DNA of 64,000 nucleotides, from positions 124,001 through 188,000 of the forward strand of contig NZ_JAFCJM010000007.1 of assembly GCF_018130955.1 (NCBI RefSeq), read 5' to 3'. This document shows positions 9,911 to 26,585 of this stretch, one piece after another (within the stretch, counting starts at the first letter, position 1; the number at the start of each line of letters is the position of its first letter). Source of the stretch: Bradyrhizobium liaoningense. GTDB lineage: Bacteria > Pseudomonadota > Alphaproteobacteria > Rhizobiales > Xanthobacteraceae. The position numbers were made by a program, and so were the translations under genes. The notes under the pieces were generated by a model. That model saw nothing but the letters and a program-made list of their open reading frames with translations. It was not told where the DNA came from and did no database searches.

Positions 9911-10614
9911 GGCCACCTCAGTTGCCGGCCACTTTTACTTTCAGCCTACGGTGACTTCCGCTGCTAGCCCTTCAGCGACATCGGAAGATTGCTGCTTCTC
10001 CACCACTGTTCGGGCCTAATCGGAAATCGGTCGGCCAGCTCCTTTATGAGTACCAGGACCCTCGCGTACGCGCGCAAGAATTCGCGGAGGAGTACGACAA
10101 TAACGTGCTGGGCGATGCCTTCGGCCCGCGCTCTACTCGTCGCTTCGCTCCTCACCGAGCCACCCTCCGGGTGTCTCGGCCCTTCGGGTAACGATCGCTA
10201 TCGCGGGCCAAGTCGCAGCGGCTCTTTCGCAATGAATCGGTCACCTGTCGACGTGTTCGGGCAGGCGCTATTGGAAGCATCTACCGCAATGACCCGAACT
10301 GCGTTTCGTCGTAAATCGCCGAGTACCGAGTGTTTGTTGGCTTGGAATTTGGGGCTTGGGAATCAGCGACCGGGAGACGACGACTTTTGATCTCGTCGTA
10401 GGAAAGCAAAAAAGCGGGAGGGCAAGATAAAAGCACTGGCGCCACGGAGCGCCTAAGCCGTTGTCTGCACATCCAAGATTTGGCGCTCTCTGGATCTTCG
10501 CTGTCGCCAGGTGAGACCCAACGCAATGGCGAACTTGGGCAATTGCGTCTGCGTCTTGGCGAGCCCTCGTCGGCTTCACATATCGGCGTCTTCTCCAAAC
10601 GTCGGATGCATGCC
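9911..10614. other. Long non-coding region ahead of the relaxase, expected to hold oriT
   Basis: About 700 bases with no convincing gene. In related ICEs the transfer origin lies just upstream of the relaxase gene, so oriT should be in or near this interval. GGCGCC-type dyads occur around 10439-10456 and again near 10482-10489, but no nic consensus stands out by eye. The segment 10130-10200 is a run of short GC dyads of the kind usual in such leaders. Confidence 0.45.
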
Positions 10615-12582
10615 ATGCGAGAGATCGAAGACGAATTCGAAGTGAAGCTCGGGCGGATCGGCAATCGCAGGACCAAGCGTGCGGCCAGCTATCTTCGACG
10701 GGTCCGCCAGGAGGCGGCCAAGGCCGGCGCCAGTGCGCGGCCAGGTTCGTCGTTCACTGGCGGCCGCATTGGCCGTGGCCACGCGCAGGGTGCGGTGTTG
10801 GCCGGGCGCGGACGAAGCCAGGGGCAACGCCGTGTCGTGATCAAGGCCCGAATCGTGCGGATCAAGTCAGGTGACACCGGTGCTGTGCGAGCGCACCTCC
10901 GCTACGTCCAACGCGACGGCGTCACGCGCGAGGGCGAGCCGGGGGAGCTATACGACGCCAGCAGTGACCGCGCCGATGGCAATAGCTTTACGGAGCGCAG
11001 CGCCGGCGATCGCCACCAGTTCCGGTTTATTGTGGCGCCGGAGGACAGCGCGGAGCTGGCGGACCTGAAACCCTTCGTCCGCGACCTCATGCGGCAGATG
11101 GAGCAGGACCTCGGCACCAGGCTCGAATGGGTCGCCGCTGATCATTTCAACACCGGCCATCCCCATACCCACATCGTCTTGCGCGGCAAGGATGACCGAG
11201 GAGACGACCTCGTGATCGCACGCGACTATATCGCTCATGGTTTCCGATCGCGGGCAGCGGAACTGATCACGCGAGAGCTCGGCCCTGAAACAGTGATCGG
11301 AGTCGCGCGCAAGCTCCAGCAGGAGGTCACGGCCGAGCGGCTCACGCGGCTTGACCGGAGCATCCTGCGAGATGCCTTTAGCGGAGCTCTTGAGCTGGGT
11401 GCGCTGTCTGGACGGGCGCCCGCCTGGCAAACGGCGCGGATCGGACGGCTGCGAACCCTGGAGCGGATGGGGTTGGCGGAGGAGACTGAACCGGGGCGCT
11501 GGCGGATCGACCCTGAGCTCGAGCCGAAGCTCAGGCGCATGGGGGAACGCGGCGATATCATCAAGACCATGCATCGCGAGATGGCAGCCGCAGGAGTTAC
11601 GCGGGCGGCCAGCGACTACACGATCTTCGATCCGGAACGAAGCGCTCATCGCCTGGTCGGGCGGGTTGTTGGCGAGGGGTTTGCCGACGAACTGACGGAG
11701 CGCCGTTATGTCGTGATCGATGGGGTGGACGGGCGGACGCACTATGTCGAGATTGGTACCCTTCGCGCCGACGAAGAGCCGCCTGTCCGGAATACGATTC
11801 TGGAGCTCAGGGCGCGCGTCGCTGAACCGCGCGCAATCGACCGGACGATCGCAGAAATCGCCGCCCGCCATGGCGGCATCTACAGCGACCGTTTGCATCG
11901 GGAATTCGACCCGCAAGCGTCGGGCGAATTTGTCGGATCCCACGTGCGGCGCCTGGAGGCGATGCGGCGCGAAGGGATAGTCAGCCGTCTTGCCGATGGC
12001 AGTTGGAGCGCCGGGCAGGATTATCTGGACCGGGCGCTTCGATACGAGGAGCTTCAGCAATCGCGCAGTCCGGTCCGGGTCGCGGTGCTGTCGTGGCAAA
12101 GGCTTGAGGATCTGCCGCAGGCGCTGGGCGCAACTTGGCTTGATCGCAAGCTTGTTGGGAGGGAGACAGCTGAGTTCGCGTCGGCCGGCTTCGGCGGGGA
12201 GGTCGAGACCGCATTGCGAGCAAGGCGGCAATGGCTGATCGAGCAGGGGCTGGCGCGAGAGGAGGGTGGCCAGCTGCGTTTTGCGCGAAACATGCTTGAG
12301 ACGCTCCAGGCCCGAGAGCTGTCGCGGACCGCGGCTGACATATCCGCGCGCACCGGCCTCGAACCTATCGACGTCAAGGCCGGCGACAAGATCGACGGCG
12401 TCTATCGGCGCATGCTGACGCTGAACAGCGGACGGTTCGCCTTGATCGAGCGGTCTCACGAGTTTGCGCTGGTGGCCTGGCGGCCGGTGCTGGAGCGTGC
12501 GCGCGGGCAATTGGTCACCGGTCAGGTCGGGGGCGAGGGCATATCCTGGTCGATCGGCATCAAGCGCGGGTTGGGCCTATAG
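10615..12582 (+). CDS. VirD2/RlxS-like relaxase with DUF3363 region
   Basis: The relaxase domain fills the first ~200 residues. Its metal-binding histidines are in HFNTGHPHTHIVLRG (H182, H184, H186 from the start used here), and HLRYVQRDG at ~94 holds the likely catalytic tyrosine (Y97). The remaining ~450 residues form the DUF3363 region. I start at 10615 (MREIEDEFEVKLGRIG) because relatives begin right there; ATG at 10606 and an upstream open frame to 10480 are alternatives. The protein nicks the transfer origin and pilots the strand to TraG. Its presence with an intact HxH triad suggests the element could still be mobilised in trans. Confidence 0.92.
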   Translation: MREIEDEFEVKLGRIGNRRTKRAASYLRRVRQEAAKAGASARPGSSFTGGRIGRGHAQGAVLAGRGRSQGQRRVVIKARIVRIKSGDTGAVRAHLRYVQRDGVTREGEPGELYDASSDRADGNSFTERSAGDRHQFRFIVAPEDSAELADLKPFVRDLMRQMEQDLGTRLEWVAADHFNTGHPHTHIVLRGKDDRGDDLVIARDYIAHGFRSRAAELITRELGPETVIGVARKLQQEVTAERLTRLDRSILRDAFSGALELGALSGRAPAWQTARIGRLRTLERMGLAEETEPGRWRIDPELEPKLRRMGERGDIIKTMHREMAAAGVTRAASDYTIFDPERSAHRLVGRVVGEGFADELTERRYVVIDGVDGRTHYVEIGTLRADEEPPVRNTILELRARVAEPRAIDRTIAEIAARHGGIYSDRLHREFDPQASGEFVGSHVRRLEAMRREGIVSRLADGSWSAGQDYLDRALRYEELQQSRSPVRVAVLSWQRLEDLPQALGATWLDRKLVGRETAEFASAGFGGEVETALRARRQWLIEQGLAREEGGQLRFARNMLETLQARELSRTAADISARTGLEPIDVKAGDKIDGVYRRMLTLNSGRFALIERSHEFALVAWRPVLERARGQLVTGQVGGEGISWSIGIKRGLGL

Positions 12583-12611
12583 ATCTACGTAAGTCACTGA
12601 TAAATATAGAA

Positions 12612-12641
12612 GTTATACTATTTTTGCGGAAATAGTATAAC
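12612..12641. promoter_or_regulatory. Operator-like palindrome, copy 1
   Basis: A 30-bp near-perfect palindrome with half site GTTATACTATTTTTG and a nearly matching complement. It is a slightly decayed twin of the perfect copy at 12665-12694, start-to-start distance 53 bases (about five helical turns). Confidence 0.75.
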
Positions 12642-12664
12642 GGGCTTGCCCCTGCGGGGAATGG

Positions 12665-12694
12665 GTTATACTATTTTCGCGAAAATAGTATAAC
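12665..12694. promoter_or_regulatory. Operator-like palindrome, copy 2 (perfect)
   Basis: A perfect 30-bp palindrome with half site GTTATACTATTTTCG, ending 13 bases before the ATG of the nucleotidyltransferase-fold gene. Each arm contains TATACT, a good -10 hexamer, so a protein bound here would block a promoter. A 30-bp mRNA hairpin sequestering the start region is the other reading. Confidence 0.8.
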
Positions 12695-12707
12695 TGGGGT
12701 TCCCGGC

Positions 12708-13847
12708 ATGACGTCCGCCCGCCTCGATATCACCTATCAAACGCTATATTCGGAATTGGCCCAGCGTAGCCTCGATGAAAGCTTCACCTCCGAATTCTCC
12801 TCGAATGGAAGATTCGTGGCCGTCGAGGTCAAGGACAAGAAATACTGGTACTTCGACACACCCAAGCCCGAGGGTGGTGGCCAGGATCGCCGCTACGTCG
12901 GTCCAGTGGACGATCCCGAAATCACCAAACGGGTTGAGGCATTCAAAGATTTGAAGGCCGACCTGAAGGGACGTCGCCGCCTTGTGTCCACGCTGACCCG
13001 CGAAGCCTATCTGCCGCGCCCCTTACCCATGGTTGGCCAAGTCGTGGAGCAACTGGCCAAGGCTGGCTTCTTCCGCATGAGGGGAGTGCTCGTCGGTACT
13101 GTGGCCTACCAATGTTACTCCGCCGTGCTTGGCCGACGCCTCGATGCGGTCGCCATGCAGACTGGTGATGCCGACTTTGCGCAATTCCACGAAATCTCGG
13201 TAGCCATCAAGGACTCCATACCTCCCATCCTGGAGGTACTTCGACAAGTCGACCAGACCTTTCGTGAGGTCCCAAGCCAAGCCGATGGCAGGGTTTCCAC
13301 CCAATTCGTGTCGAGAGGCAACTTCAAGGTGGAATTCCTGACACCGAACCAGTGGTCCGATGATCAGGCAGGCAAGCCAGTTCCGATGCCGGCGCTCGGT
13401 GGTGCGGCGGCATTTCCGCTGCGCTTTCTCGATTACCTGATCTACGAGCCCATCCGTGCCGTGCTGCTGCACGGTGCAGGCGTGCCGGTTCTCATTCCAT
13501 CTCCAGAGCGATATGCCATCCACAAGCTCATCGTCGGATCCCGCCGGAAGCAAGACCGCGACGGGACGGCCAAGAGCGCGAAGGATCGGCTTCAAGCCAG
13601 ATCGATCATTGAAGCAATGATCGAGAACCGGCAGCACGCTGATCTTGCCTCCGCCTTCATGGAGGCATGGGATCGTGGTGACCAGTGGAGAGCTGCGATC
13701 CGCACCAGCATTGCAACCTATGACGATGACTTCCAGACGTTGCTCCGAACCGAATTTGCGAAGGGTGTATCCGAGTTCGGCTCCGATCCAGCCAATTACG
13801 ATCTGGCAGACAAGTCCACCGGCGAGCCGGCTCCAACGCCAAAATGA
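12708..13847 (+). CDS. GSU2403-type nucleotidyltransferase-fold protein
   Basis: The 379-residue product has the core RGVLVGTVAYQCYSAVLGRR (~123-142) followed by TGDADFAQFHEI, giving the G...DxD pattern of a minimal nucleotidyltransferase, then the long C-terminal region with SPERYAIHKLIVGSRR. This fits the GSU2403 family (Pfam NTP_transf_8), which is related to AbiEii-type toxins and often carried on mobile DNA. It stands alone between the relaxase and traG, behind two tandem palindromes, which is how autoregulated toxin-like genes are arranged; no separate antitoxin gene is visible. Function as a toxin or defence enzyme is inference. Confidence 0.8.
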   Translation: MTSARLDITYQTLYSELAQRSLDESFTSEFSSNGRFVAVEVKDKKYWYFDTPKPEGGGQDRRYVGPVDDPEITKRVEAFKDLKADLKGRRRLVSTLTREAYLPRPLPMVGQVVEQLAKAGFFRMRGVLVGTVAYQCYSAVLGRRLDAVAMQTGDADFAQFHEISVAIKDSIPPILEVLRQVDQTFREVPSQADGRVSTQFVSRGNFKVEFLTPNQWSDDQAGKPVPMPALGGAAAFPLRFLDYLIYEPIRAVLLHGAGVPVLIPSPERYAIHKLIVGSRRKQDRDGTAKSAKDRLQARSIIEAMIENRQHADLASAFMEAWDRGDQWRAAIRTSIATYDDDFQTLLRTEFAKGVSEFGSDPANYDLADKSTGEPAPTPK

Positions 13848-14460
13848 CCTTGGGGCAGGCCTAGTACCGGTCTCGAGCTTCCCTGCTCCAATATCGCCTC
13901 GACCAGCAGCAGCGGCAGCACAAGCCTGCATCAACATGATCGCCTCTGCCACGCGGGTGCTGCCGATGAAGATGCCGATATCGGCATGCCGATTACGTCC
14001 GCGTCACCGATCATGCTGGAGACCGCGCCTGGCCTAACATGACCGTGGCAGTGATCGGGCTGTCCACGCCTTGCTGGCTCTTATTCGCCAAATGGCATGT
14101 TGATCGCTGACCCGTCCGACCCATCGCGCCTGAGTACAATTAGACGCAGCTCAGTCTTACAGAATCGCATCGTGGTGCTTCATGGTCGTGCCGACTCGCG
14201 CATGGTCGCTATGGTGCTGAGCGCCAATCGCAAAGGCTCAGTGGGTGACATGGCAACGAGATGCAATTTGGGCCAAGTGTTCACGCGCTGTTGAGGCGCT
14301 CGATGACGCTGCGCTGACCTTGATCTTCAAGTCCGGCGCCTGATCAGACTTGATCAATCTCGCGCTCGCTGACAGCGCGACTTTTTATTTCGATTGAAGG
14401 CCTGCCGCATTCACCGTTTTCATCGCGCCGCTCACGTTGCGTGAGTATGGGGCGAGCGGG
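13848..14460. other. Intergenic region between the nucleotidyltransferase gene and traG
   Basis: About 610 bases with only short, composition-biased frames. GATGCCGATATCGGCATGCCG near 13975 contains overlapping dyads. No gene or clear insertion-sequence end is seen. The nucleotidyltransferase gene plus this stretch interrupts the usual relaxase-to-traG spacing and looks like inserted cargo. Confidence 0.4.
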
Positions 14461-16050
14461 ATGTTTCCAGCAAAAATCTATCTCGGTCAGATCACCGTCG
14501 TGCTCGGCATCGTCGTTGTGTCGACCTGGGGCGCGACGCAATGGACTGCCGCAGCTCTCGGATATCAGCAGCGCTTGGGTGAGCCCTGGTTCCTGATCAT
14601 CGGCTATCGCGTCTATCTCCCTTGGCGGTTGTTCGAATGGTGGTTCGCCTACGAGGCCTATGCGCCCGAGATCTTTGAGGAGGGCGGAGCGATTGCGGCG
14701 GCTGGCGGCATCGCGGGCGCGCTCTTTGCGATCGTCAACTCTGTGTGGCGCGCGCGCCAAAGCCAATTGGTGACGACTTACGGTTCGGCTCGGTGGGCGA
14801 CGTCGAAGGAAATCAAGGCGGCCGGCCTGTTCGCGTCCAAGGGCGTTTTCCTGGGGCGTCTCGAGAACAACTATCTGCGGCACGATGGACCGGAACACGT
14901 CATGTGCTTTGCGCCGACCCGATCGGGAAAGGGCGTCGGACTGGTCTTGCCTACATTGCTCTCGTGGACGTCGTCAGCCGTGGTGCACGACATCAAGGGC
15001 GAGAACTGGGAATTGACCTCCGGCTGGCGTTCGACCTTCTCGCATTGCCTTCTGTTCAATCCCACGGATGAACGGAGCGCCCGCTACAATCCGCTGCTGG
15101 AGGTGCGCAAGGGAGCCGCCGAGGTCCGCGACGTCCAGAACATCGCCGACATCCTGGTCGATCCCGAAGGGGCGCTCGAACGCCGCACCCATTGGGAAAA
15201 GACCAGTCATTCGCTTCTGGTCGGTGTCATCCTTCACGTCCTTTACGCCGAAGAGAAGAAGACACTAACCCGCGTCACCGAGATCCTGGCCGATCCGGCG
15301 CAGTCCTTTGAGAAGACGCTCCGGATCATGCTGGCAACCAATCACCTCGGCACCGAGGCCGAGCCGAAGGTACATCCTGTCGTCGCCGCGACGGCACGAG
15401 AACTGCTCAACAAGTCCGAAAACGAACGCTCCGGCGTTCTGTCAACCGCCGTGAGCTTTCTTGGGCTCTACCGCGATCCCGTCGTCAGCCGAAACACCGA
15501 ATCTTGCGATTGGCGCATCGCCGACCTCGTGAGTGCCGATAAGCCGGTCACGCTCTACCTCGTCGTTCCGCCGTCGGACATCAGCCGGACCAAGCCGCTG
15601 ATCAGGCTGATCCTCAATCAGATCGGCCGCCGGCTGACCGAGACGCTGAATACCAAGGCAGGCGACCGCAGGCACCGTCAGCTCCTGATGATGCTGGACG
15701 AGTTTCCTGCGCTTGGCCGGCTCGACTTCTTCGAGAGCGCGCTCGCCTTCATGGCCGGTTACGGCATCCGCGCCTACCTGATCGCCCAGTCGCTCAATCA
15801 GATCGCAAAGGCTTATGGCGAGAACAATGCGATCCTGGACAATTGTCACGTCCGCATTGCTTTCGCCGCCAATGACGAGCGCACCGCCAAACGGATTTCG
15901 GACGCCCTCGGCACCGCAACGGAACTACGTGCACAGCGCCGCAAGGGACTCGGATCATGGGCAAATACGACAGCGTCGTCGCCTTTGGCCAGAAGCGGGC
16001 GCTGGTCGTCTGGACGAGACTCATCTTGCCGAACGGCAATTCGATCGTGA
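14461..16050 (+). CDS. traG: TraG/VirD4 coupling protein, C-terminally truncated by deletion
   Basis: Start at 14461 (MFPAKIYLGQITVVLG) matches the family N terminus, with two membrane segments in the first ~100 residues. Walker A is PTRSGKGVG (~residue 152) and Walker B is LLMMLDEFPALGRL (~residue 407). The sequence is typical up to ATELRAQR at about residue 493 (base 15939), after which it joins trbI sequence in a different frame and adds a meaningless 36-residue tail. Intact relatives go on for roughly 150 more residues. Coupling proteins link the relaxase complex to the channel; this one lacks its C-terminal region and probably does not work. Confidence 0.9.
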   Translation: MFPAKIYLGQITVVLGIVVVSTWGATQWTAAALGYQQRLGEPWFLIIGYRVYLPWRLFEWWFAYEAYAPEIFEEGGAIAAAGGIAGALFAIVNSVWRARQSQLVTTYGSARWATSKEIKAAGLFASKGVFLGRLENNYLRHDGPEHVMCFAPTRSGKGVGLVLPTLLSWTSSAVVHDIKGENWELTSGWRSTFSHCLLFNPTDERSARYNPLLEVRKGAAEVRDVQNIADILVDPEGALERRTHWEKTSHSLLVGVILHVLYAEEKKTLTRVTEILADPAQSFEKTLRIMLATNHLGTEAEPKVHPVVAATARELLNKSENERSGVLSTAVSFLGLYRDPVVSRNTESCDWRIADLVSADKPVTLYLVVPPSDISRTKPLIRLILNQIGRRLTETLNTKAGDRRHRQLLMMLDEFPALGRLDFFESALAFMAGYGIRAYLIAQSLNQIAKAYGENNAILDNCHVRIAFAANDERTAKRISDALGTATELRAQRRKGLGSWANTTASSPLARSGRWSSGRDSSCRTAIRS

Positions 16051-17645: not shown

Positions 17646-18062
17646 CTATATGCGCAGCGCCGACCTGAGCTTGGCGAAAGCACGCGCGATCGTGATCCAG
17701 ATTCGGCTGATCCAAGGCCGCTGCCGCTCGTCGTGAACGACATGACGCGCGATCTGATTGCGCATGACGGCCGACGCCTGGGCTGTCGAGAACGCAGGCA
17801 GCCACTCGATGTGGCCGCCCGCGATGATGTAGTGCGACTTGCAAGGCGCGTCGCAGACCGAAATCGAGGGCCGGACGGTGGGTGTGCCATTCTGAGCAGA
17901 GACTTGGTGGCTGTCAGGGACCAGCAGCATTACCCGATGTCCGCAGCCGCACGCGCAGGAGAGGGCCGCCACCTCGAACTCCTCGGAGTGATAGAGCACT
18001 CCCTGCGCAAGGTGCTTCGGCAAACGCTCGACGGCCTGGTAAGTGAAGCGCATCGCGGTCAT
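17646..18062 (-). CDS. DUF6527 protein, predicted ubiquitin-like maturation peptidase
   Basis: The 138-residue protein has a cysteine-rich block CACGCGHR (~34-41) followed by LVPDSH and then TPTVRPSISVCDAPCKSHYI, the conserved DUF6527 core, and GGHIEW near the C terminus. The cysteines and histidine suggest a bound zinc. It is the last gene of the operon: its ATG begins one base after the ThiF stop. DUF6527 proteins co-occur with ThiF and multi-ubiquitin genes and are thought to process the ubiquitin-like partner; this protease role is from my recall of recent work and from context. Confidence 0.78.
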   Translation of the reverse strand: MTAMRFTYQAVERLPKHLAQGVLYHSEEFEVAALSCACGCGHRVMLLVPDSHQVSAQNGTPTVRPSISVCDAPCKSHYIIAGGHIEWLPAFSTAQASAVMRNQIARHVVHDERQRPWISRIWITIARAFAKLRSALRI

Positions 18063-18063
18063 G

Positions 18064-19248
18064 TTACTTGTCGATCTCCAGCGTCGCGGTGTCGAAGATG
18101 GCGCAGGTTGCCTCGTCCAGGCGTTCGAGCAGCTTGAAGTGCTGCTTGAACCTGATCACGGCCATGACGGCGTTGAGAGCGTTCAGCTCGGTGATTTGCG
18201 CCTGCTTGCGGTACTCATTGGCCTTGGCGTTCTCCGTTGGCAGCCGGGCAGTTCCGACGTTGTCGTCAAACGCCTTCCGGTCGGTACCGGTCACGCGGAC
18301 GAATCCGGTAAGGCCGCCGACCGATCGATCGAGTCCCATGCCGCAGTCGACGTATGGAATGCCGCGCGTGCTGAACCAATCGACGATCAGGAGGCGGGCC
18401 GGGCCATCGTCGACGGACACAAAGACGAAGTCGAAGGAGTTCAGGCGTTCGATGTTGGCGGCGGTGATGCGCTCCGGAACCGGATCCAAGCCCGCGTGCC
18501 AGTTCCCATACTGACGGGCCAGAACGTTTACCTTGAGCTCGCCGATGGCGCGGGGAACGAAGCCCGGTATCCGGAAGATCGTGTGGACGTGCACCTTGTC
18601 GTCGTCGAACAGCGCGATGCGCTCGAGATGCGTCCTCGCGATGAAGTCCAGGATGTAGGATCCCGTGCCGCCGAGGCCGATGATCGCCACGCGCTTTCCA
18701 CGCAGCAGGGAGGAGATGTCGTTCATATGGTACCTGGAGGACATCGTGTCCGGGAAGCGCAGGGGGCTGCCTTGCGCCGCCGCCTTCACGGCGATGCCGC
18801 GCAACGGCGTCGCATCCGGGTAGGCGGCGAGCGAGGGGCCGGTGATCGCGTCGAGATAGGTCTGCACCTTCTCTTCGAACGAGCGATAGGCGCGGTTCTC
18901 GCCGTTCTCCTGCAGCTTGAACGAGAACGACTGATTGGCGACGAGATCCGGAGTGATCGTCACAGGATTCGGTCCGCCGCCTAGCCTGATCTGGCGCCCT
19001 TGCTGGTCGAAGGGGCGGGTACCTCGCCACCATGCCTGATGATCGGACGGCGGGTCGATCACGGCGCCATTCAGGTCCAGGGGACTGGCCCAATCGCCAT
19101 GCTGAAGCGCGCCCTGATCATCCAGATAGGGCAGGCCGTAGATGATGAAGTAGCCGCCCACAAAGCCGAGCTCGTAGCCGAGCTCCTCGAGATCCTTGAC
19201 GAATGGATTATGACTCGCCAGTTCCGGCAACCCTAAAGCGCATGCCAT
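18064..19248 (-). CDS. ThiF-family E1-like enzyme with N-terminal DUF6791-type domain
   Basis: The C-terminal half is an E1/ThiF adenylation domain: nucleotide loop G191-L-G-G-T-G196, the acidic patch FDDDKVHVHTIFR (~214-226), and SVDDGPARLLIVDWF. The first ~170 residues form a separate domain (FVKDLEELGYELGFVGGYFI at the start) resembling DUF6791, found only in such fusions and possibly E2-like. A candidate acceptor cysteine is C302 in YVDCGMGLD. It would adenylate the C terminus of the multi-ubiquitin protein and may pass it to the N-terminal domain. It overlaps the upstream gene by 41 bases, so the two are translationally coupled. Confidence 0.87.
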   Translation of the reverse strand: MACALGLPELASHNPFVKDLEELGYELGFVGGYFIIYGLPYLDDQGALQHGDWASPLDLNGAVIDPPSDHQAWWRGTRPFDQQGRQIRLGGGPNPVTITPDLVANQSFSFKLQENGENRAYRSFEEKVQTYLDAITGPSLAAYPDATPLRGIAVKAAAQGSPLRFPDTMSSRYHMNDISSLLRGKRVAIIGLGGTGSYILDFIARTHLERIALFDDDKVHVHTIFRIPGFVPRAIGELKVNVLARQYGNWHAGLDPVPERITAANIERLNSFDFVFVSVDDGPARLLIVDWFSTRGIPYVDCGMGLDRSVGGLTGFVRVTGTDRKAFDDNVGTARLPTENAKANEYRKQAQITELNALNAVMAVIRFKQHFKLLERLDEATCAIFDTATLEIDK

Positions 19249-19660
19249 CTTTCACCGTAACCTTCTGTCCAGGAGCCAAAGTGCCGCTCGGGTTCTCCGC
19301 GGGGCCGTGGGAATACTTCACGAGGTACTCGTTCGACGGGCTGCCGCCTCTGCCGAGATAGAGCTCGACGACCTGGGCGTACGAGATGTGCTTCTGGTCG
19401 ATCTCGTGCTCGTCGGTGTTGACGAAGATCTCGAACACCTTCTGGCTGTAGAAGTGCTCGTCTTCCTTCAGGTGGATGGTCTCGCCGTCGCGAGGGATCG
19501 GCTTGTCTTCCTTGTCCCCATTGACCTCCCGGTACAGCCGCTCATGGGGCGGGATCTGGGCGAGCCCGTAGAGGGCTTCGCCAGTTGCGGGGTTGGGCGA
19601 GTCGTAGGGCTCGCGGTTGACGTGGATGCGCACCAAATGCGCGACGACATCGACAGACAT
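19208..19660 (-). CDS. Multi-ubiquitin domain protein (two beta-grasp repeats)
   Basis: The 150-residue product has two tandem ubiquitin-like modules, VRIHVNREPYDSPNPATGEA onward (~9-72) and KVFEIFVNTDEHEID onward (~73-150), as in the Multi_ubiq family. It ends RFRVAGTGES rather than in a free diglycine, so trimming after GTG or a similar point would be needed to expose a conjugation-ready end. It is the first gene of the minus-strand operon; two operator-like sites lie 56 and 120 bases upstream, and an XRE regulator is divergent from it. Confidence 0.86.
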   Translation of the reverse strand: MSVDVVAHLVRIHVNREPYDSPNPATGEALYGLAQIPPHERLYREVNGDKEDKPIPRDGETIHLKEDEHFYSQKVFEIFVNTDEHEIDQKHISYAQVVELYLGRGGSPSNEYLVKYSHGPAENPSGTLAPGQKVTVKDGMRFRVAGTGES

Positions 19661-19715
19661 TTCAGTACCTTCCTGCCTCGCGGCGCTTGCATTTCACGCA
19701 CGGGGTTGTATAGCT

Positions 19716-19733
19716 GGTGTCCAGCCAGACAAC
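19716..19733. promoter_or_regulatory. Operator-like site 1 of the ubiquitin-like operon
   Basis: GGTGTCCAGCCAGACAAC, matching site 2 in 17 of 18 positions. The dyad is GTTGTC / GACAAC around a 6-base core. It lies between the promoter-proximal end of the multi-ubiquitin gene and site 2. Confidence 0.72.
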
Positions 19734-19779
19734 ATCCGGGCGGTTAAAAACGCCCAGTCCGCGCAACGGGTGAGGGCGT

Positions 19780-19797
19780 GTTGTCCAGCCAGACAAC
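19780..19797. promoter_or_regulatory. Operator-like site 2, next to the XRE gene
   Basis: GTTGTCCAGCCAGACAAC, a 6-bp inverted repeat with CAGCCA between the arms, 35 bases ahead of the XRE start codon and 64 bases from site 1. TTGTCC within it could serve as a -35 box, so repressor binding would autoregulate the XRE gene while site 1 controls the conjugation operon. Confidence 0.75.
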
Positions 19798-19832
19798 AGT
19801 ATGATTGTGGCAAGATTTTGTCGGGAGGACGG

Positions 19833-20204
19833 ATGCCGGAAACGGCGCTTGGGACCTGGTTGAAGGATCTGCGGGACCGCCGCGGCATGAGCTTGCGGGA
19901 GGTCGCTGAGCGCAGCCGCGTCGACCACGCCTACATCTACCGCCTCGAGACCGGCACGAAGGAGGCTCCCTCGGAGGAGGTGGTCAACAAGCTGATATCG
20001 GCGCTGACGCCACCGGCGCGCGACGCGGAGATACTGCGCTTCCTCGTCGACCACACCAACATCGACATCAAGCTCGTCGAGTTCGTCCGAGGCGATCCAA
20101 GCATCACCTTCGATCAGTTCCACATGCTGACGACGGTCGTAAACCGCGGTGCGCGCCCCGACTATGTGACCTCGCTCGCCCGCATCCGTAAATTCATGAC
20201 GTAG
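19833..20204 (+). CDS. XRE-family repressor divergent from the ubiquitin-like operon
   Basis: Start at 19833 (MPETALGTWLKDLRDRRGMS) follows GGGAGGA by three bases. The HTH occupies residues ~9-65 (SLREVAERSRVDHAYIYRLE), and the remaining ~60 residues are a helical tail. It is followed 9 bases later by an ImmA/IrrE protease gene, the standard repressor/anti-repressor pair of ICEBs1 (ImmR/ImmA) and of CBASS operons (CapH/CapP), where the protease cleaves the repressor on a DNA-damage or single-strand DNA cue. Targets here are probably the two sites at 19716 and 19780. Confidence 0.88.
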   Translation: MPETALGTWLKDLRDRRGMSLREVAERSRVDHAYIYRLETGTKEAPSEEVVNKLISALTPPARDAEILRFLVDHTNIDIKLVEFVRGDPSITFDQFHMLTTVVNRGARPDYVTSLARIRKFMT

Positions 20205-20213
20205 GTCGGCAAC

Positions 20214-21077
20214 ATGATTGATGAACTCGGCATCGCTATCAAGGCGCGTGAGTTCATCAAGCGCTGTGGACCGTTGGCCCTGCCAGTTTCGGTCGATGGC
20301 TACGCCTCGCAGATTGGCGGGGAAGTGCTCAAAGAGGCGTTGGAGGAGAACGAGGACGCCTGGTCCTTCCGCGACAAGGGAGGCAAGTACCGGATCTGCG
20401 TGAATTGCACCCATAATGCGAGACGCCAGCGATTCAGCGTCTGCCACGAGGTGGCCCACGTCGTTCTCGAGATCACCTCCGATCATGTGACGCCGAGCTG
20501 GAGCTATTCGCGCCGCCCTCCGGGTGAGATCGCTTGCGACGTTTTCGCGGCCGAGCTGCTGCTGCCGTATCAGTTGTTCAAGCCGCGCGTCGACGGCGCC
20601 GACATGTCGATCTCGGCGATCGGCAGCCTGGCGGACGAGTTTGACGCGTCCCTGATCTCCACCGGCTCGCGTTTCGCGACCTTTTCTCGCGAACTGTGCG
20701 CCTTCGTCGTCTCCGAGGGAGGCAAGGTCCGGTACAGCGCCCGCTCTACCCGGCTTCGCGAAGCGAAGGGGTGGATCAGGCCAGGCTCGCCTCTGCCGAC
20801 AGACTCCTACAGCGCCCGTGTTCGCGCCGGTGAAAGGCCGTCGGGGGCCGAGGACGCCGATCCAGATTCATGGTTCGAGGATTTGGCGCGGGATGGGGCG
20901 CTCTTCGAAGATGCGCTGCATTTGGGGCATTGGGACCAGACACTGACGCTGCTATGGTTGGACGACGAGCATCTATCGGCACCGGCCTCGGAACGAAAGC
21001 AGTGGGACGAGGACTCTTACAAGCTGCGCGAGCTCGACGGAGTGCTTCCGTGGCCTAGCGGGAAGAAGCGCAGGTAG
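20214..21077 (+). CDS. ImmA/IrrE-family metallopeptidase, partner of the XRE repressor
   Basis: Zinc motif H78-E-V-A-H82 sits in RFSVCHEVAHVVLE, and the downstream acidic ligand lies in ACDVFAAELLLP. At 287 residues it is longer than the minimal ImmA; the extra ~120 C-terminal residues are acidic and end LPWPSGKKRR, which may be a sensor region. It forms a two-gene operon with the XRE gene and is expected to cleave that repressor, releasing the divergent ubiquitin-like operon. The trigger is unknown. Confidence 0.87.
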   Translation: MIDELGIAIKAREFIKRCGPLALPVSVDGYASQIGGEVLKEALEENEDAWSFRDKGGKYRICVNCTHNARRQRFSVCHEVAHVVLEITSDHVTPSWSYSRRPPGEIACDVFAAELLLPYQLFKPRVDGADMSISAIGSLADEFDASLISTGSRFATFSRELCAFVVSEGGKVRYSARSTRLREAKGWIRPGSPLPTDSYSARVRAGERPSGAEDADPDSWFEDLARDGALFEDALHLGHWDQTLTLLWLDDEHLSAPASERKQWDEDSYKLRELDGVLPWPSGKKRR

Positions 21078-21470
21078 ATGGCAGCTTGTGCGGACAGGAC
21101 GAAGTTAGGGTGCGCACCAAGCGTGTGGGCCAGCGTTTCGTCGCCCAGTAGCTACGTCGGTTATCCACGATCGACTTGCCTGTGCCCCGATGCCGCAGCT
21201 GCGGGGGAAGGACGCTCGGGCGGGTGCCCCCCGCGTGGCCGCTGCCCTTCTTCAGGAGTCGAGACCACGGCAGCAAAGAGGTAGGCTTTAATTCATCAAA
21301 GGGGCGAGTCCCGCCAGCAACGACGGTCAAGGGCGAACTTTGATGCGAAATGCCCGAAAATGTGAGCAAAATGATCGAACGCCGGGGCAAATTTGACAAT
21401 TTTCGGGAATTTCCCATTATCTCCTGCCATACAAACGAATTCATTACCTGATTCGGCAAACAGCCCCAAA
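21078..21470. other. Intergenic region with the promoter of the cyclase operon
   Basis: About 390 bases. The left 200 are GC-rich without a gene; from about 21290 the sequence becomes AT-richer and carries the promoter described at 21393-21421. No terminator hairpin with a T run is obvious behind the protease gene. Confidence 0.5.
21393..21421 (+). promoter_or_regulatory. Predicted sigma-70 promoter with palindrome in the spacer
   Basis: TTGACA at 21393-21398, a 17-base spacer, then ATTATC at 21416-21421. The spacer contains the palindrome GGGAATTTCCC (21405-21415), placed where a bound repressor would block RNA polymerase. It drives the ImmA/IrrE gene whose ATG is about 50 bases downstream. 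Confidence 0.55.
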
Positions 21471-22001
21471 ATGATGGAATATAGCGCTCCGGTCGAAAGC
21501 AACCTATCGAAAGCCGTCGTGGATACGTTCGCTGCGGATGTTGCCAACCAATTGAGCTATGTTCCTGGAGCGGACCTTTCGCCAATCGTCGGGAAGCTGG
21601 GCGGCAGAATAACCACCCAAAACGTTCTGGACTTCAATCGCGTGCCATCCGGTTCAATCCGGATTGATGCCCCCGGCAGGTTCGAGATCTTTTTGGCTGC
21701 ACACACCGGACCCATGCGGGATCGATTTACGATCGCTCATGAACTCGGCCATTACGTGTTGCATTACCTTTATCCGAACCGCAACGGCCGCAAGGTCGAG
21801 AGACTAGAAGCTCAGCGTTATGGTTCAGGGCGCGTTGAGTGGGAAGCGAATTGGTTTGCCGCCGGATTTTTAATGCCGGTGGCACAGTTTCGAGAGCGCT
21901 ACGGCCTGTTGCAAGGCTCCCATGCGGCGCTCGCAGCCGAATTCGGCGTTTCTCTCGAATCTATCAGGATCCGAATCCAGTCACTCGGTCTCACACGTTG
22001 A
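21471..22001 (+). CDS. ImmA/IrrE-family metallopeptidase heading the cyclase operon
   Basis: From the ATG at 21471 (MMEYSAPVES) the product is 176 residues with the zinc motif H90-E-L-G-H94 (RFTIAHELGHYVLHY) and the second block EWEANWFAAGFLMP. The last ~30 residues (AALAAEFGVSLESIRIRI) form the small helical end usual for the family. The frame is open back to 21393, inside the predicted promoter, so the shorter start is preferred. There is no adjacent XRE gene; it is followed 16 bases later by a nucleotidyl cyclase gene, so it may activate or release that system directly. Confidence 0.82.
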   Translation: MMEYSAPVESNLSKAVVDTFAADVANQLSYVPGADLSPIVGKLGGRITTQNVLDFNRVPSGSIRIDAPGRFEIFLAAHTGPMRDRFTIAHELGHYVLHYLYPNRNGRKVERLEAQRYGSGRVEWEANWFAAGFLMPVAQFRERYGLLQGSHAALAAEFGVSLESIRIRIQSLGLTR

Positions 22002-22017
22002 GTAAGACAGTGCGTTC

Positions 22018-23154
22018 ATGGAAGCTGGGCCCTTCACGTCTACTCTCCGGATCTTTTTGAGCGTCGATATCGTCGGGTCGACAGCGTTCAAGCAGGCTGC
22101 AAAGGATCACATCCCCGAGCATTCGATTGGTGATGAACCGCCTCCTGCTGAGCCATGGTTCTCTCCAATAGCGCAATTTTACCGCGGCATTGAGCGAACG
22201 TTCGCACGCGAATGGGCCCTTTGTGTCGAATCGTCCCAGAAGCTCGGCTGGCCAACGGGCCCGGCGCCGGAACTTTGGAAGAGCGTTGGTGATGAACTGA
22301 TCTACACCAAACGCCTCACCGATCACCGTGAAGCGCTCACCACGATCAATGCGTGGATGAAAGCCATTCAGTCATACCGAAAACGGCTGAGAGAGCAGTT
22401 CAAGTCGCTCGATCTCAAGACCACGGCGTGGGTCGCGGGATTTCCCGTGCACAACGCAGAAGTTGTATTCCGATCATCTGTTCAGGGACTGCGGGATGCC
22501 GAAGATGAAGACGATGAAGTATTCAGCAATCTTGCGCTGCTCAATGAATATTACAATAGCCCACGCAATCCAGAACTGACGAAGGATTTTATCGGTCCGG
22601 CGATCGATACGGGATTTCGCCTTTCGCAACTTTCAACGCCGCGACGCCTCGTCATTTCGGTTGAGTTGGCCTTGTTGCTAGTTCATGCCGTCCGAACACA
22701 GCCCCACGAATATGCATACGAGAGGCTCAGGTTCTTCTTTGAGGGACGACACAGCCTGAAGGGCGTCTTCGGAGGCCTACCATATCCCATATTTTGGATC
22801 GACATGCGTCCATCCCCTGAGCTCGAAGCCAGCGAAGACGAGCTCAACAACAAGAAGCCCCTCGGCACCGATACCGTCTTGAGCTTTTGTCATGAGTTCG
22901 TGAAGGCGAGCGATGGCTACTGTTTCACCCCGTATATCGTCGACAACATCGATCCTACGTTCAATCAAGTTCCTGACCATCACACGCGACGCTTGGCGGG
23001 GCTCAAAACATATTGGGAAAGAGAGGCCCAAAAGAGGTTGGATGAAGAGACCGCTGGACTCCAGATAACCGATGGAGTTTTGCAGACGTCTGACGAAGGT
23101 CTGAAGAAAATCCTGCGTGACCTCGAAGGGGGATCTTCTTCGCCGGACCAGTAG
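22018..23154 (+). CDS. Class III nucleotidyl cyclase-like protein, possible Pycsar-type cyclase
   Basis: The cyclase core begins FLSVDIVGSTAFKQ (first metal aspartate at ~17) and continues with LWKSVGDELIYTKRL (second metal aspartate at ~93), the two signatures of class III adenylate/guanylate/pyrimidine cyclases. There is no membrane or sensor domain in its 378 residues; a long insert lies between the motifs, and a helical, charged C-terminal tail follows. Soluble single-domain class III cyclases encoded beside membrane proteins are the layout of Pycsar defence systems. Here the neighbours are an ImmA/IrrE protease before it and a membrane protein after it. Base specificity cannot be read by eye. 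Confidence 0.72.
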   Translation: MEAGPFTSTLRIFLSVDIVGSTAFKQAAKDHIPEHSIGDEPPPAEPWFSPIAQFYRGIERTFAREWALCVESSQKLGWPTGPAPELWKSVGDELIYTKRLTDHREALTTINAWMKAIQSYRKRLREQFKSLDLKTTAWVAGFPVHNAEVVFRSSVQGLRDAEDEDDEVFSNLALLNEYYNSPRNPELTKDFIGPAIDTGFRLSQLSTPRRLVISVELALLLVHAVRTQPHEYAYERLRFFFEGRHSLKGVFGGLPYPIFWIDMRPSPELEASEDELNNKKPLGTDTVLSFCHEFVKASDGYCFTPYIVDNIDPTFNQVPDHHTRRLAGLKTYWEREAQKRLDEETAGLQITDGVLQTSDEGLKKILRDLEGGSSSPDQ

Positions 23155-23358
23155 GACGTGTGTTTTGAGTGCGGCACCCATCGGAGCCGGGCTGGTGGCG
23201 TTGCCCCCCAATTATCCCATCATAACCAATGGGAATGGTTCGGAAGCGAACGCTGCGACGCCAATGGAGCCTTTGAGTCGGGGACAACGACTTTGGTTGG
23301 CTTGAAAGCCAGTTGCAACCACCGGTAAATAGCATCGACCGATGGACTGGGGGAACGA

Positions 23359-24810
23359 ATGCCGCGATCGTTTTTCTTTGGCGCTTGTGCCGTTGCACTG
23401 ACGCTCGCGTTTTTCATCGTGCCCTCCAGCGCCCAGCAGAACACTGCTCCAAGGGTGGGAGCTCCGGAAGCGCAGACTACTGCGCCCTTGCAGTCGCCAC
23501 AGAAGATCGATGAAGCGTCGACCGGTGCAGGTGCAACGATTACTACTCCCAGTGATCCGCAAAAGCAGTGCGTAAAACCGGGCGAATTTGCCATCGAGCT
23601 TCGATCGGGCCGAAACCCGGTCGGGCCGCCCATTGTCATTGGCACTAACTTCATCCCGACCAATCAACGAGTCGACATCGGCGTTCGGGCGCCTTTTGTC
23701 GATGGCGTCCGCTACTTCGCCGGTATCGACTACGGCGACGACACCTATCTGTTCAAGCGGCAAGACGTCGTAACGCACCGCGCCACCGATTCCGACCCCC
23801 TGGTACAGAAGCGCCTGCTCGAGGCCGACCAGACGATAGTCACGCTGAACATGGGCGATGACCTGGCATGGTTCTGGAGCAGAGTCGATCTTTACCTCTA
23901 CACCTGCAACAGTCCCGTGGGCCAATCCCCCTGGCGGGTCTCGTCCGTGACTGTCCGCCTGAGCCCCTACTGGCTTAGCGTTTTCGCCGTCATCGCAGAG
24001 GTGCTCGTACTGTACGTTTGGATCGCGTTTGCCCTCCGCAAGCAGGATCACACGTTCGGATCATTTCTCGGTGCGCTGAACCCCGCACAGGTGTCGGCCG
24101 GCCCGGACGGGAAGGGTAGCCTGTCGACGTTCCAAACGCTGGCCTTTTCGCTCGCAGTCGCCGCGCTAATCACGCTTCTACTGCTGCAGACAGGGACCTT
24201 GGTGGACCTCTCGGGGTCGATTCTGGCGCTGCTGGGCATCAGCGGGATTGGAGCCACGATCGCGAAGGGCACAGACACTCAGCGCAATGCGCTGTCGGCC
24301 GATAATAGGGCGTGGCTTCTTCGCCACGGCTGGATTCCAATGGCCAAGACCGTCGTCGACCCGTCAGGCGCCACGTGGCGCGACTTCTTCACCACCGACG
24401 GCGTGTTCGATGTGTATCGATACCAAAGCTTCATCTTTGGCCTGGTCGTCATCGGCGGGCTAGTCGCAGCCGGCGTCAATCAGCTTTCGACGTTCGCGGT
24501 CCCGAACACGATCCTTGGCATCGTTGGGCTCAGCCAAGTCGTCTACATCGGTGGCAAGCTCGTTACCCCGACCAACATTTCCGACCTGAATGCCGCGATA
24601 GCGGACCTTCGCGCGGCCGAACAGAAGTTGAAGGCAGCGGCTGTAGCGAAAAAGCAGGGGCAAGTGGCGAGCTTGGCGGAAGCCATTCCGCTGATTGGAC
24701 AGGACGCTTACGACGCGTACCGGCAGAAGGCCAGAGATGTCGCGGCGATATTCGCGGATGCGACCGGCATTGTCGTCGTCGATGCCTCGCTTGAACCAGT
24801 CGTCGCTTAA
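23359..24810 (+). CDS. Membrane protein with signal peptide, possible effector
   Basis: A signal peptide (SFFFGACAVALTLAFFIVPS, cut near SSAQQ) is followed by ~180 periplasmic residues, a membrane span at ~200-222 (YWLSVFAVIAEVLVLYVWIA), a second pair around 250-300 (TLAFSLAVAALITLLLLQTG, then ILALLGISGIGATIAKG), and further spans near 355-400. The string LVDLSGSILALLGISG is shared by bacterial membrane proteins of unknown function. The start has GGGGGAACG upstream. The C-terminal ~90 residues are cytosolic and helical. It sits between the cyclase and the phosphoesterase genes; a role as membrane effector is inference. Confidence 0.75.
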   Translation: MPRSFFFGACAVALTLAFFIVPSSAQQNTAPRVGAPEAQTTAPLQSPQKIDEASTGAGATITTPSDPQKQCVKPGEFAIELRSGRNPVGPPIVIGTNFIPTNQRVDIGVRAPFVDGVRYFAGIDYGDDTYLFKRQDVVTHRATDSDPLVQKRLLEADQTIVTLNMGDDLAWFWSRVDLYLYTCNSPVGQSPWRVSSVTVRLSPYWLSVFAVIAEVLVLYVWIAFALRKQDHTFGSFLGALNPAQVSAGPDGKGSLSTFQTLAFSLAVAALITLLLLQTGTLVDLSGSILALLGISGIGATIAKGTDTQRNALSADNRAWLLRHGWIPMAKTVVDPSGATWRDFFTTDGVFDVYRYQSFIFGLVVIGGLVAAGVNQLSTFAVPNTILGIVGLSQVVYIGGKLVTPTNISDLNAAIADLRAAEQKLKAAAVAKKQGQVASLAEAIPLIGQDAYDAYRQKARDVAAIFADATGIVVVDASLEPVVA

Positions 24811-24824
24811 GAGGGTTGAGGGAA

Positions 24825-26585
24825 ATGGTCGAAAAGCCATTAGACGATACGAAGACCTATCCGCACATGGCGCACTGGTTCGACCCGGTGTTGCTGCTTC
24901 AGTTGCTCAACAATGTGGTCGTTTCGTCGATATTCGGACAATATGCCGATAGGCGCCTAATGATCGCAGCGCTGGACACAGTGCCGCCCGAAGAGCACGC
25001 GAGGAGGGCTGAGGAGTTTCGGACGCGCCTGAAGCCGGACGATGAGGGCGGAGTCTGGATCGATTGGGTCGCCGATCTCGGCGACGGCTTCGACAGCACC
25101 TACGCGGTGGCGAGCCTTCTGGCCAAGAAACAGTTGAAGGTTGGCGACGTCGACCTACCACGCGGAGAGGCGCTCGTCATGGGCGGCGACGAAGTATACC
25201 CAAAGGCCACTCGGCAGGCCTACACGCACCAGCTTTGGCAGCCCTACGCGTGGGCTGCTCCCGACTCCAATAAGAAGAACGACGCGGGAAGGCCGTTGCT
25301 CGCGATTCCCGGAAACCATGATTGGTACGACGGGCTGGTGCTCTTCCTCGCGCTATTTTCCCGCGAAAAGCCGTGGCATGTCGGTGCCTGGCGTTCCTAC
25401 CAACGTCGCAGTTACTTCGCCGTACGTCTCTCCGAAACGTGGTGGCTGTGGGCGACCGACATCCAACTCGCCGACAACATGGACCAGCCTCAGTTTGACT
25501 ATTTTAAGCATATCGCGGCGCATATGCCCGAGAACTCCAGGATCATCCTCTGCAGTGCCGAACCTGGCTGGTTGTACACGGACAGCAATAGAAACTCGTG
25601 GGAGATCATGGAGTACGCTGCCGGGATCGCGATGAACGCTGGGCGCGGACATACCATTCCGATATTGTTGTCCGGCGACACGCATCACTACAGCCGCTAC
25701 GTCGGCAGGGACGATCGGCAGTACGTAACGTCCGGCGGAGGTGGGGCCTTTCTCCATCCGACGCACCAACTCGAGCAGGACGTCTCGGTGCGCCTCGTCG
25801 ACCATCGCGAGGCACTGAAGCTCGGCACCATGCCGGATCCAAACGATCCAAAGAAGACCACGGCGGCGGCTTACCCGTCGTTCGCGACGAGCCGGGCGCT
25901 GACCCTACGGAACGCCTTCTTCGCATTCACGAACTGGGACTTCTCGCTGCTGATGGGGGGCATCTACTTCCTCTTCGCGGTGCTGATCTCGCTGCGGGAC
26001 CGGCCGGACGTCTATGCGCTAATCGCCGCGGTCTTTGGCGCTTCCCTGATCGGGTACACAATCAAGCAGGAGGTCTCGACCAGGTTCAAGATCTGGTCCT
26101 CAAGCGCCGTGCATGCGGCGGCCCACGCAGCCGTGCTCATCTGTGCTGCGCGGTACGCGATCGCCTTCAATAACCAACATTTCGCGTGGAATGGCGAGTG
26201 GTGGGAAGTGTGGAAGTGGTTCGGCCTGCTTGCCGCGGAGATGGTTGCGGTGGGTTTCCTGATCGGGAGCACGCTGTTCGGCCTGAACATGATGTTGACT
26301 TGTCTATTGCTCAGGATGAACCGAAATGACGCGTTCAGCTCGCTTCGGATCGGGGCGTACAATAACTTCCTTCGTATCCGGCTGACAAACGATGGCTTCG
26401 ACATGTTTGCCATCGGACTTGAGAAGGTGCCCCAGCGGGGCGACTGGATCGCCAACTCCAAACACAATAAAGACGCGCCCGATTCTGAGATTCCGGTCTT
26501 CGTTCCCAAAACCGATCTCAAGCCGCATCTGATCGAGCAGGTCTCGCTCCGCTTCGGTCCAAAGCAAGCCGGTCCCATCGCTTAG
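24825..26585 (+). CDS. Metallophosphoesterase with C-terminal membrane domain
   Basis: The calcineurin-like motifs are visible: DWVADLGDGFDSTYAV (~77-92, first metal block), AIPGNHDWYDG (~162), SGDTHHYSRY (~283), with GGDE at ~120. Four or so membrane spans follow from ~355 (LMGGIYFLFAVLISLRD) to ~490 (MVAVGFLIGSTLFGLNMML), then a ~90-residue cytosolic tail. The ATG at 24825 has GAGGGTTGAGGGA upstream and is preferred over TTG at 24816. It follows the membrane protein by 14 bases. It might hydrolyse a nucleotide signal made by the cyclase or a membrane phosphodiester; both are inference. Confidence 0.82.
   Translation: MVEKPLDDTKTYPHMAHWFDPVLLLQLLNNVVVSSIFGQYADRRLMIAALDTVPPEEHARRAEEFRTRLKPDDEGGVWIDWVADLGDGFDSTYAVASLLAKKQLKVGDVDLPRGEALVMGGDEVYPKATRQAYTHQLWQPYAWAAPDSNKKNDAGRPLLAIPGNHDWYDGLVLFLALFSREKPWHVGAWRSYQRRSYFAVRLSETWWLWATDIQLADNMDQPQFDYFKHIAAHMPENSRIILCSAEPGWLYTDSNRNSWEIMEYAAGIAMNAGRGHTIPILLSGDTHHYSRYVGRDDRQYVTSGGGGAFLHPTHQLEQDVSVRLVDHREALKLGTMPDPNDPKKTTAAAYPSFATSRALTLRNAFFAFTNWDFSLLMGGIYFLFAVLISLRDRPDVYALIAAVFGASLIGYTIKQEVSTRFKIWSSSAVHAAAHAAVLICAARYAIAFNNQHFAWNGEWWEVWKWFGLLAAEMVAVGFLIGSTLFGLNMMLTCLLLRMNRNDAFSSLRIGAYNNFLRIRLTNDGFDMFAIGLEKVPQRGDWIANSKHNKDAPDSEIPVFVPKTDLKPHLIEQVSLRFGPKQAGPIA

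Follow-up and report, generated by a model that had tools for sequence, protein, structure and literature searches.

Bub has been described as a diverged bacterial ubiquitination pathway, and in the available text on it 219 of 544 Bub operons carry either CapW or the pair CapH and CapP, of which CapP is activated by single-stranded DNA (ssDNA) and cleaves CapH (PMC13373217). Bil possesses a conjugating enzyme (E2) with a catalytic cysteine and a JAB domain (accessible part of PMC11354881), and the available portion of a 2006 survey tabulates operons for polyubiquitin-like (polyUbl) proteins in which the activating enzyme (E1) carries a domain X instead of JAB (row 6e, footnote b; PMC1779556). 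Here, an operon encoding a ubiquitin-like protein (Ubl), an E1-like enzyme and a DUF6527 protein is analyzed within a 64,000-nucleotide stretch of Bradyrhizobium liaoningense DNA, the whole of which is termed the window. The operon is real, well conserved and close to the published systems. The reading favored here, to which we assign a probability of about 0.62, is that of a compact Ubl operon from a sister class of Bub that is devoid of the E2 and JAB parts, lies beside mobilization genes, and would be repressed by a CapH-type protein through two dyads until a CapP-type protease, likely triggered by DNA damage, cuts this repressor.

Composition and conservation of the operon

The three operon genes lie on the minus strand in the order Ubl, E1, DUF6527. 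The Ubl gene (19208..19660) specifies 150 residues with two Multi_ubiq β-grasp repeats (PF14452, E = 1e-16, two stretches) and the C terminus ...AGTGES. It overlaps by 41 nt the E1-like gene (18064..19248; 394 residues), the product of which consists of a DUF6791 domain (residues 17-168, positions 18745..19200; PF20590, E = 3.5e-24) and a ThiF adenylation domain (residues 182-376, positions 18121..18705; PF00899, E = 3.7e-17; 97.7% by hhalign to the BubD part). A gap of 1 nt precedes the DUF6527 gene (17646..18062; 138 residues; PF20137, E = 5e-16), whose structural model has a predicted local distance difference test (pLDDT) score of 95.3.

On the plus strand, beyond a divergent control region of 172 bp (19661..19832), lie a gene for a CapH-like XRE repressor (19833..20204, ATG at 19833; 123 residues) and one for a CapP-like M78 (ImmA/IrrE) protease with an HEVAH motif, CHEVAH in the sequence (20214..21077; 287 residues). 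The former matched PADLOC capH (E = 4.4e-12) and Pfam HTH_31 (E = 8e-13); the latter matched PADLOC capP over residues 10-250 (E = 6.6e-51) and PDB 7t5t, an entry named CapP (E = 4.8e-10). The match of the XRE protein to 7t5u, a helix-turn-helix (HTH) domain protein, was weaker (E = 1.4e-5). All five reading frames are intact, and their domain matches are near full length. An initial annotation, made by a model from the letters of the DNA, had proposed both the coupled three-gene operon and the divergent XRE and HEVAH-protease genes; the coordinates and the matches above agree with it on both points.

Relatives were sought by scanning genome contigs with an E1 alignment, so that partner genes were not used for finding them. 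A total of 366 were confirmed and the best 80 were examined, with two loci of the window's own genome (L001 and L082) left out. Judged by record titles, these best 80 span Alphaproteobacteria, Bacteroidota, Actinobacteria, Chloroflexi and archaea of the ammonia-oxidizer type. The Ubl gene is directly upstream of E1 in 78 of the 80 and the DUF6527 gene directly downstream in 77, with no DUF6527 gene detected at L040, L043 and L065. Given that both partners adjoin E1 in 75 of the 80, the Ubl-E1-DUF6527 core is a widespread unit. Two loci at which the E1 is partial and a Ubl was not detected (L028 and L031) were excluded from the Ubl, E1-residue and regulator counts below. Four alignments of chosen members (A2, A3, A4 and A5) comprised the window sequence plus 41, 39, 33 and 24 relatives, respectively.

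Among genome records, the nearest E1 (94%) comes from a Bradyrhizobium metagenome-assembled genome. Of 13 genomes of the genus examined, the window's own was the sole one in which DUF6791 was found. The phage records searched held no E1 match; three viral contigs did.

Variant arrangements were also seen. L060 is the sole locus of the 78 without a Ubl-E1 overlap, a second and inverted Ubl-E1 copy is present at L071, and an E1-Ubl fusion protein (P0107) was also encountered. On the B. diazoefficiens plasmid AP014688.1 (33046-34226), the E1 match is split between two separately annotated proteins, and this copy may be broken.

Ubl tail, E1 residues and DUF6527

The last residue of the Ubl, encoded at 19211..19213 on the minus strand, is serine in 78 of 78 relatives (TDKS in 28, TGES in 27, TGQS in 8 and other endings in 15), and none of the 78 has GG within the last eight residues. 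Two relatives on viral contigs end in TDKS and TNRS. The Ubl also matched PDB 9cd2, a multi-ubiquitin protein (E = 5.8e-9) that ends in TDKS and, judged by its sequence, belongs with the DUF6791-E1 class.

Alignment of the window E1 with those of the 78 relatives (n = 79) revealed that R226 and K239 are invariant and that D280 is present in 78; the E1 keeps the invariant residues of the adenylation site. ThiF-type enzymes carry their cysteine in the region that matches E1 residues 320-360. In this alignment 72 of the 79 proteins are without cysteine between residues 320 and 360, and no cysteine column exceeds 42 of 79, such that a conserved E1 cysteine is absent. Tyr346 (codon 18211..18213, minus strand) is found in 78 of the 79, the exception being the broken E1 of L025. 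A forced global profile alignment places this residue on Bub Tyr370, which is tyrosine in 119 of 119 Bub proteins and is the residue changed to Phe in PDB 9eav; we infer that Tyr346 is its counterpart. In the DUF6527 protein, C36, C38, C40, C74 and H77 are invariant across 40 sequences (the window plus 39 chosen relatives) and likely constitute a metal site.

Comparison with Bub, Bil and the domain X operons

The closest Foldseek matches of the E1 are BubCD. According to their titles, PDB entries 9ea4-9eav include BubCD of Citrobacter and its complex with BubB and BubA(155-229). A plasmid operon that is 88% identical to BubCD (135 residues searched) encodes Multi_ubiq plus Prok-E2_E, then Prok-JAB plus ThiF, then DUF6527, and is preceded by two genes whose position and weak domain matches suggest capK and capS. 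The window operon shares with Bub the order of Multi_ubiq Ubl, ThiF E1 and DUF6527, a homologous ThiF part of the E1, and an invariant tyrosine at the aligned place. By contrast, the plasmid Bub operon has its Ubl fused with Prok-E2_E and its E1 fused with JAB, whereas neither was found in the window, and DUF6791 sits in the JAB place. The Ubl ends differ likewise: the window class ends in serine, whereas Gly229 is present in 86 of 86 Bub proteins counted (after removal of Ubl-E2 proteins of 330 residues or fewer, 9 of 95). If the numbering in the PDB titles carries over, the BubA construct ends at Gly229, which is taken from those titles as the mature end.

Neither E2_E nor JAB was matched by Pfam in the three operon proteins. 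Profiles of E2_E (from 95 Bub proteins) and of JAB (from 119) were prepared, BubCD relatives of 400 residues or fewer (2 of 121) having been dropped. They recovered the control locus L083 and had no match in the window, the two own-genome loci or the stretches around the 80 relatives (extending at most 6 kb to either side), although distant types could escape them. Prok-E2_E was not found in the window's own genome. Because JAB and E2_E are missing, the window operon does not, strictly speaking, qualify as Bub. Bub, which the initial annotation had named as a known DUF6527-containing class, is matched in the Ubl-E1-DUF6527 order and not in Prok-E2_E, JAB or the C-terminal glycine.

The same annotation had proposed comparing the N-terminal domain of the E1 with E2 folds; an E2-like fold, although possible, was not shown by the searches. 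The DUF6791 model (pLDDT 88.6) comprises a helix and four strands, besides additional short strands and helices. The Pfam matches of 25 members, filtered so as to remove most of those with E >0.1, included no E2 family, nor did the PDB sequence matches for DUF6791 include an E2; hhalign probabilities were 1.2 against the BubB-type E2 (Prok-E2_E) and 0.1 against JAB, and the structure searches (Foldseek) were filled by the ThiF domain. These results bear on the foremost alternative, which is that the operon is Bub with divergent domains, DUF6791 being an E2 (or JAB) fold that escapes recognition and the chemistry and roles being as in Bub. The common gene order, ThiF part, DUF6527 protein and kinds of Cap controller are consistent with it, as is an alphaproteobacterial Bub operon (L093) with a divergent CapH/CapP pair of its own, and the helix, four strands and later helix of the DUF6791 model would fit an E2-like core. 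Set against this are the failure of sequence and profile comparisons to connect DUF6791 with E2_E or JAB, the extra strands at 96-119 of the model, and a Ubl tail of serine rather than glycine. We regard this alternative as unlikely, and a sister class of Bub accounts better for the operon.

By architecture, the window operon belongs to the domain X class of type 6e of Iyer and co-workers (2006), an assignment made from the text and table. The two share one to three ubiquitin-like repeats, an E1 with an N-terminal domain other than JAB, and a metal-binding protein. For the domain X version, the available text on type 6e mentions neither a serine tail of the Ubl nor a regulator or operator (PMC1779556). 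With Bil, the operon has in common a polyUbl protein, the profile of which resembles BilA weakly (8u38, E = 8e-4); the E2 and JAB domains of Bil are absent from the three window proteins by Pfam, Bil-type profiles not having been run on the flanks. Searches of the literature found nothing that joins DUF6527 to ubiquitin and nothing on BubCD by name, although core Bub papers may already describe the class; DUF6791 is unmentioned among the literature matches listed.

Dyads in the control region

Two dyads within the 172-bp control region are predicted CapH operators: one on the Ubl side at 19716..19733, GGTGTCCAGCCAGACAAC, and one on the capH side at 19780..19797, GTTGTCCAGCCAGACAAC. They agree at 17 of 18 bases, their starts are 64 bp apart, and one lies nearer each of the divergent gene starts. 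At up to 3 mismatches, the window holds 2 dyad matches compared with 0.04 expected from shuffles, which upholds the two near-identical 18-bp dyads of the initial annotation. The exact form GTTGTC-N6-GACAAC, fitted by the second dyad only, has a single location in the 8.29-Mb genome.

Among relatives, a site was defined as having at most one arm mismatch and lying upstream of the E1 gene, and a window-like CapH as one with E below 1e-40, a cut-off set after the values had been seen. At least two GTTGTC-N6-GACAAC sites were present in all 16 operons with a window-like CapH, and none of the 62 others had even one. In 15 of the 16, the sites are 62-68 bp apart. The predicted operator provides a sequence tag by which one CapH type can be recognized. 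A promoter scan of 19600-19900 detected nothing sigma-70-like; it gave a single terminator-like site, at 19757-19736 on the minus strand, compared with 0.3 expected.

Distribution of the CapH/CapP switch

A divergent upstream M78 (CapP-like) gene was observed in 46 of 78 relatives, 33 of which also have a separate CapH-like match; no such gene lies upstream in the other 32, 5 of which have <3 kb of upstream sequence. Whether homologous operons mostly lack the regulator pair, one of three points by which the initial annotation would have its proposal refuted, is answered differently for the M78 gene and for the pair: the M78 gene accompanies the operon in 46, and the strict pair does not reach a majority. 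Among relatives without an M78 gene, WYL (CapW-like) proteins were found at L037, L060, L063 and L075 when ten upstream proteins were scanned. At L069, a STAS-like DUF4325/HTH gene stands beside a weak HATPase match, a CapK/CapS-like arrangement.

CapP was also searched for in two overlapping sets of 398 and 397 genomes. At E ≤1e-20, it was found in the window's own genome and in three others. In one of these (L103), which has Ubl-E1-DUF6527, three dyad sites precede the operon. In the other two, L102 (2034-8012) and L104 (2390-8375), the exact 18-mer of the capH-side dyad is present in the opposite orientation relative to capH; a second site 66 bp away has two arm mismatches, exceeding the one-mismatch rule, and each locus therefore counts as having one site. 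PADLOC identified a phospholipase effector, a cyclase and an E1-E2 protein in both operons and JAB in L104, and a JAB-like frame is visible by eye in L102. On the basis of the PADLOC assignments, these are type II operons of the cyclic oligonucleotide-based antiphage signaling system (CBASS). CapH and CapP of L104 are 50% and 40% identical, respectively, to those of the window. At the Bub operon L093, the divergent CapH/CapP pair is of another type; no dyads lie upstream, and one motif match falls inside its E1 gene.

The CapH/CapP switch behaves as an exchangeable cassette, because it precedes both Ubl operons and CBASS, is of another type at L093, and is uncoupled at a plasmid locus (L084). 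The arrangement of an XRE repressor and an M78 protease divergent from the operon is that of the CBASS switch. There it fronts CBASS, whereas in the window it fronts a Ubl operon, and here binding and cleavage are predicted. The same switch is thereby seen before two different systems. The combination of this E1 fusion with a CapH/CapP-like switch, singled out as striking by the initial annotation, loses its novelty in that a 2026 paper already describes such controllers beside Bub operons (CapW or CapH+CapP in 219 of 544; available text of PMC13373217).

Proposed mechanism and alternatives

In the favored reading, CapH would bind both dyads, repressing the operon and itself, and CapP, ssDNA-activated by homology, would cleave CapH, DNA damage being the likely trigger. 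Given that repressor-like and protease-like genes lie head to head around two matching DNA sites, tagging would likely be switched on after DNA damage. The E1 would adenylate the ready-made C-terminal serine of the Ubl; because this end is ready-made, no trimming protease would be needed. Tyr346, at the place of Bub Tyr370, would help transfer instead of a cysteine, DUF6791 would take over the E2 role, and the metal-binding-like DUF6527 protein would guide or edit the modification. Ubl conjugation and a role in defense are themselves predicted from sequence. For the inducible conjugation system initially proposed, a Ubl-conjugation-type operon with a CapH/CapP-like switch and dyads that track the CapH type are in place, and release of the repressor by cleavage is predicted from CapP homology.

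Several observations weigh against this reading. Prok-JAB matches occur on two other contigs of the same genome, one of them above the cut-off, and a JAB protein may therefore act from outside the operon. The serine tail is encoded inside the Ubl/E1 overlap, which has a fixed register in 77 of 78 relatives, and part of its invariance may thus stem from the E1 frame; L060, a single case without the overlap, still ends in TGQS. The match of Tyr346 to Tyr370 comes from an alignment that was forced to be global and has a gap nearby, the local alignment having ended before the region. The strict pair of CapH and CapP is limited to 33 of 78 relatives. On a B. barranii plasmid (L084, 4140-4620), a complete Ubl operon has kept the Ubl-side dyad with the capH/capP side replaced, and neither capH nor capP was found within the 11-kb stretch. 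L010 fits the dyad spacing only by a looser match (pair 66 bp apart), and the Fisher p of 6e-17 for the association of dyads with CapH type is overstated, because the loci are related and both the motif arms and the CapH cut-off were refined after a first look. Finally, according to PMC13373217, protection from phage has yet to be demonstrated for Bub.

Somewhat less probable than a divergent Bub is a function outside protein tagging, in which adenylation of the Ubl tail by the E1 would yield a modified product, either a small peptide or a protein, in the manner of MccB acting on MccA; alternatively, the Ubl would assemble into filaments as a stress structure. The BubCD identity of the closest Foldseek matches, together with the DUF6527 partner and Cap controllers common to Bub, argues against it. 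A decayed or selfish remnant of a mobile element is highly improbable: sporadic occurrence (1 of 13 genus genomes) and the damaged E1 of L025 would suit it, but the five frames are intact with near full-length domain matches, and conservation of the dyads and of catalytic-type residues extends across genera.

Because neither an E2 nor a trimming protease is recognizable in the operon, and no reactive cysteine is conserved, it may indicate how few components a pathway of this kind requires. Retention of Ubl, E1 and DUF6527 where E2 and JAB are not recognizable points to the parts common to Bub and the window class, and the roles of DUF6527 and of the E1 tyrosine become testable with three small proteins. 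A bolder proposal, which we put forward tentatively as possible rather than probable, is that this is the smallest known Ubl conjugation pathway: a Ubl born mature with a serine end, one E1 that both activates and transfers it through an oxygen ester on Tyr346, and a metal protein would operate with no cysteine, E2 or maturation protease, governed by a cassette of repressor, operator and protease that is exchanged as one unit between Ubl operons and CBASS.

Genomic neighborhood

Upstream in window coordinates are genes for a DUF3363 protein whose relaxase match is sub-threshold (10480-12582), for a nucleotidyltransferase of the NTP_transf_8 family (12708-13847) and, at 14437-16050, for a type IV coupling protein, which suggests that 10480-16050 is a mobilization region, either its remains or a part. 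Given these nearby relaxase-like and coupling-protein genes and the restriction of DUF6791 to 1 of 13 genus genomes, the operon is likely carried on a mobile element.

On the other side, a second M78 protein with a weaker capP match (21393-22001) adjoins the operon. The region 21393-26585 further encodes a 378-residue protein with a cyclase-like motif recognized by eye (IFLSVDIVGSTAFK) and a membrane-like protein, also assigned by eye, neither of which had a Pfam match, and a protein with a sub-threshold match to calcineurin-like phosphoesterases. This region is perhaps another inducible defense module.

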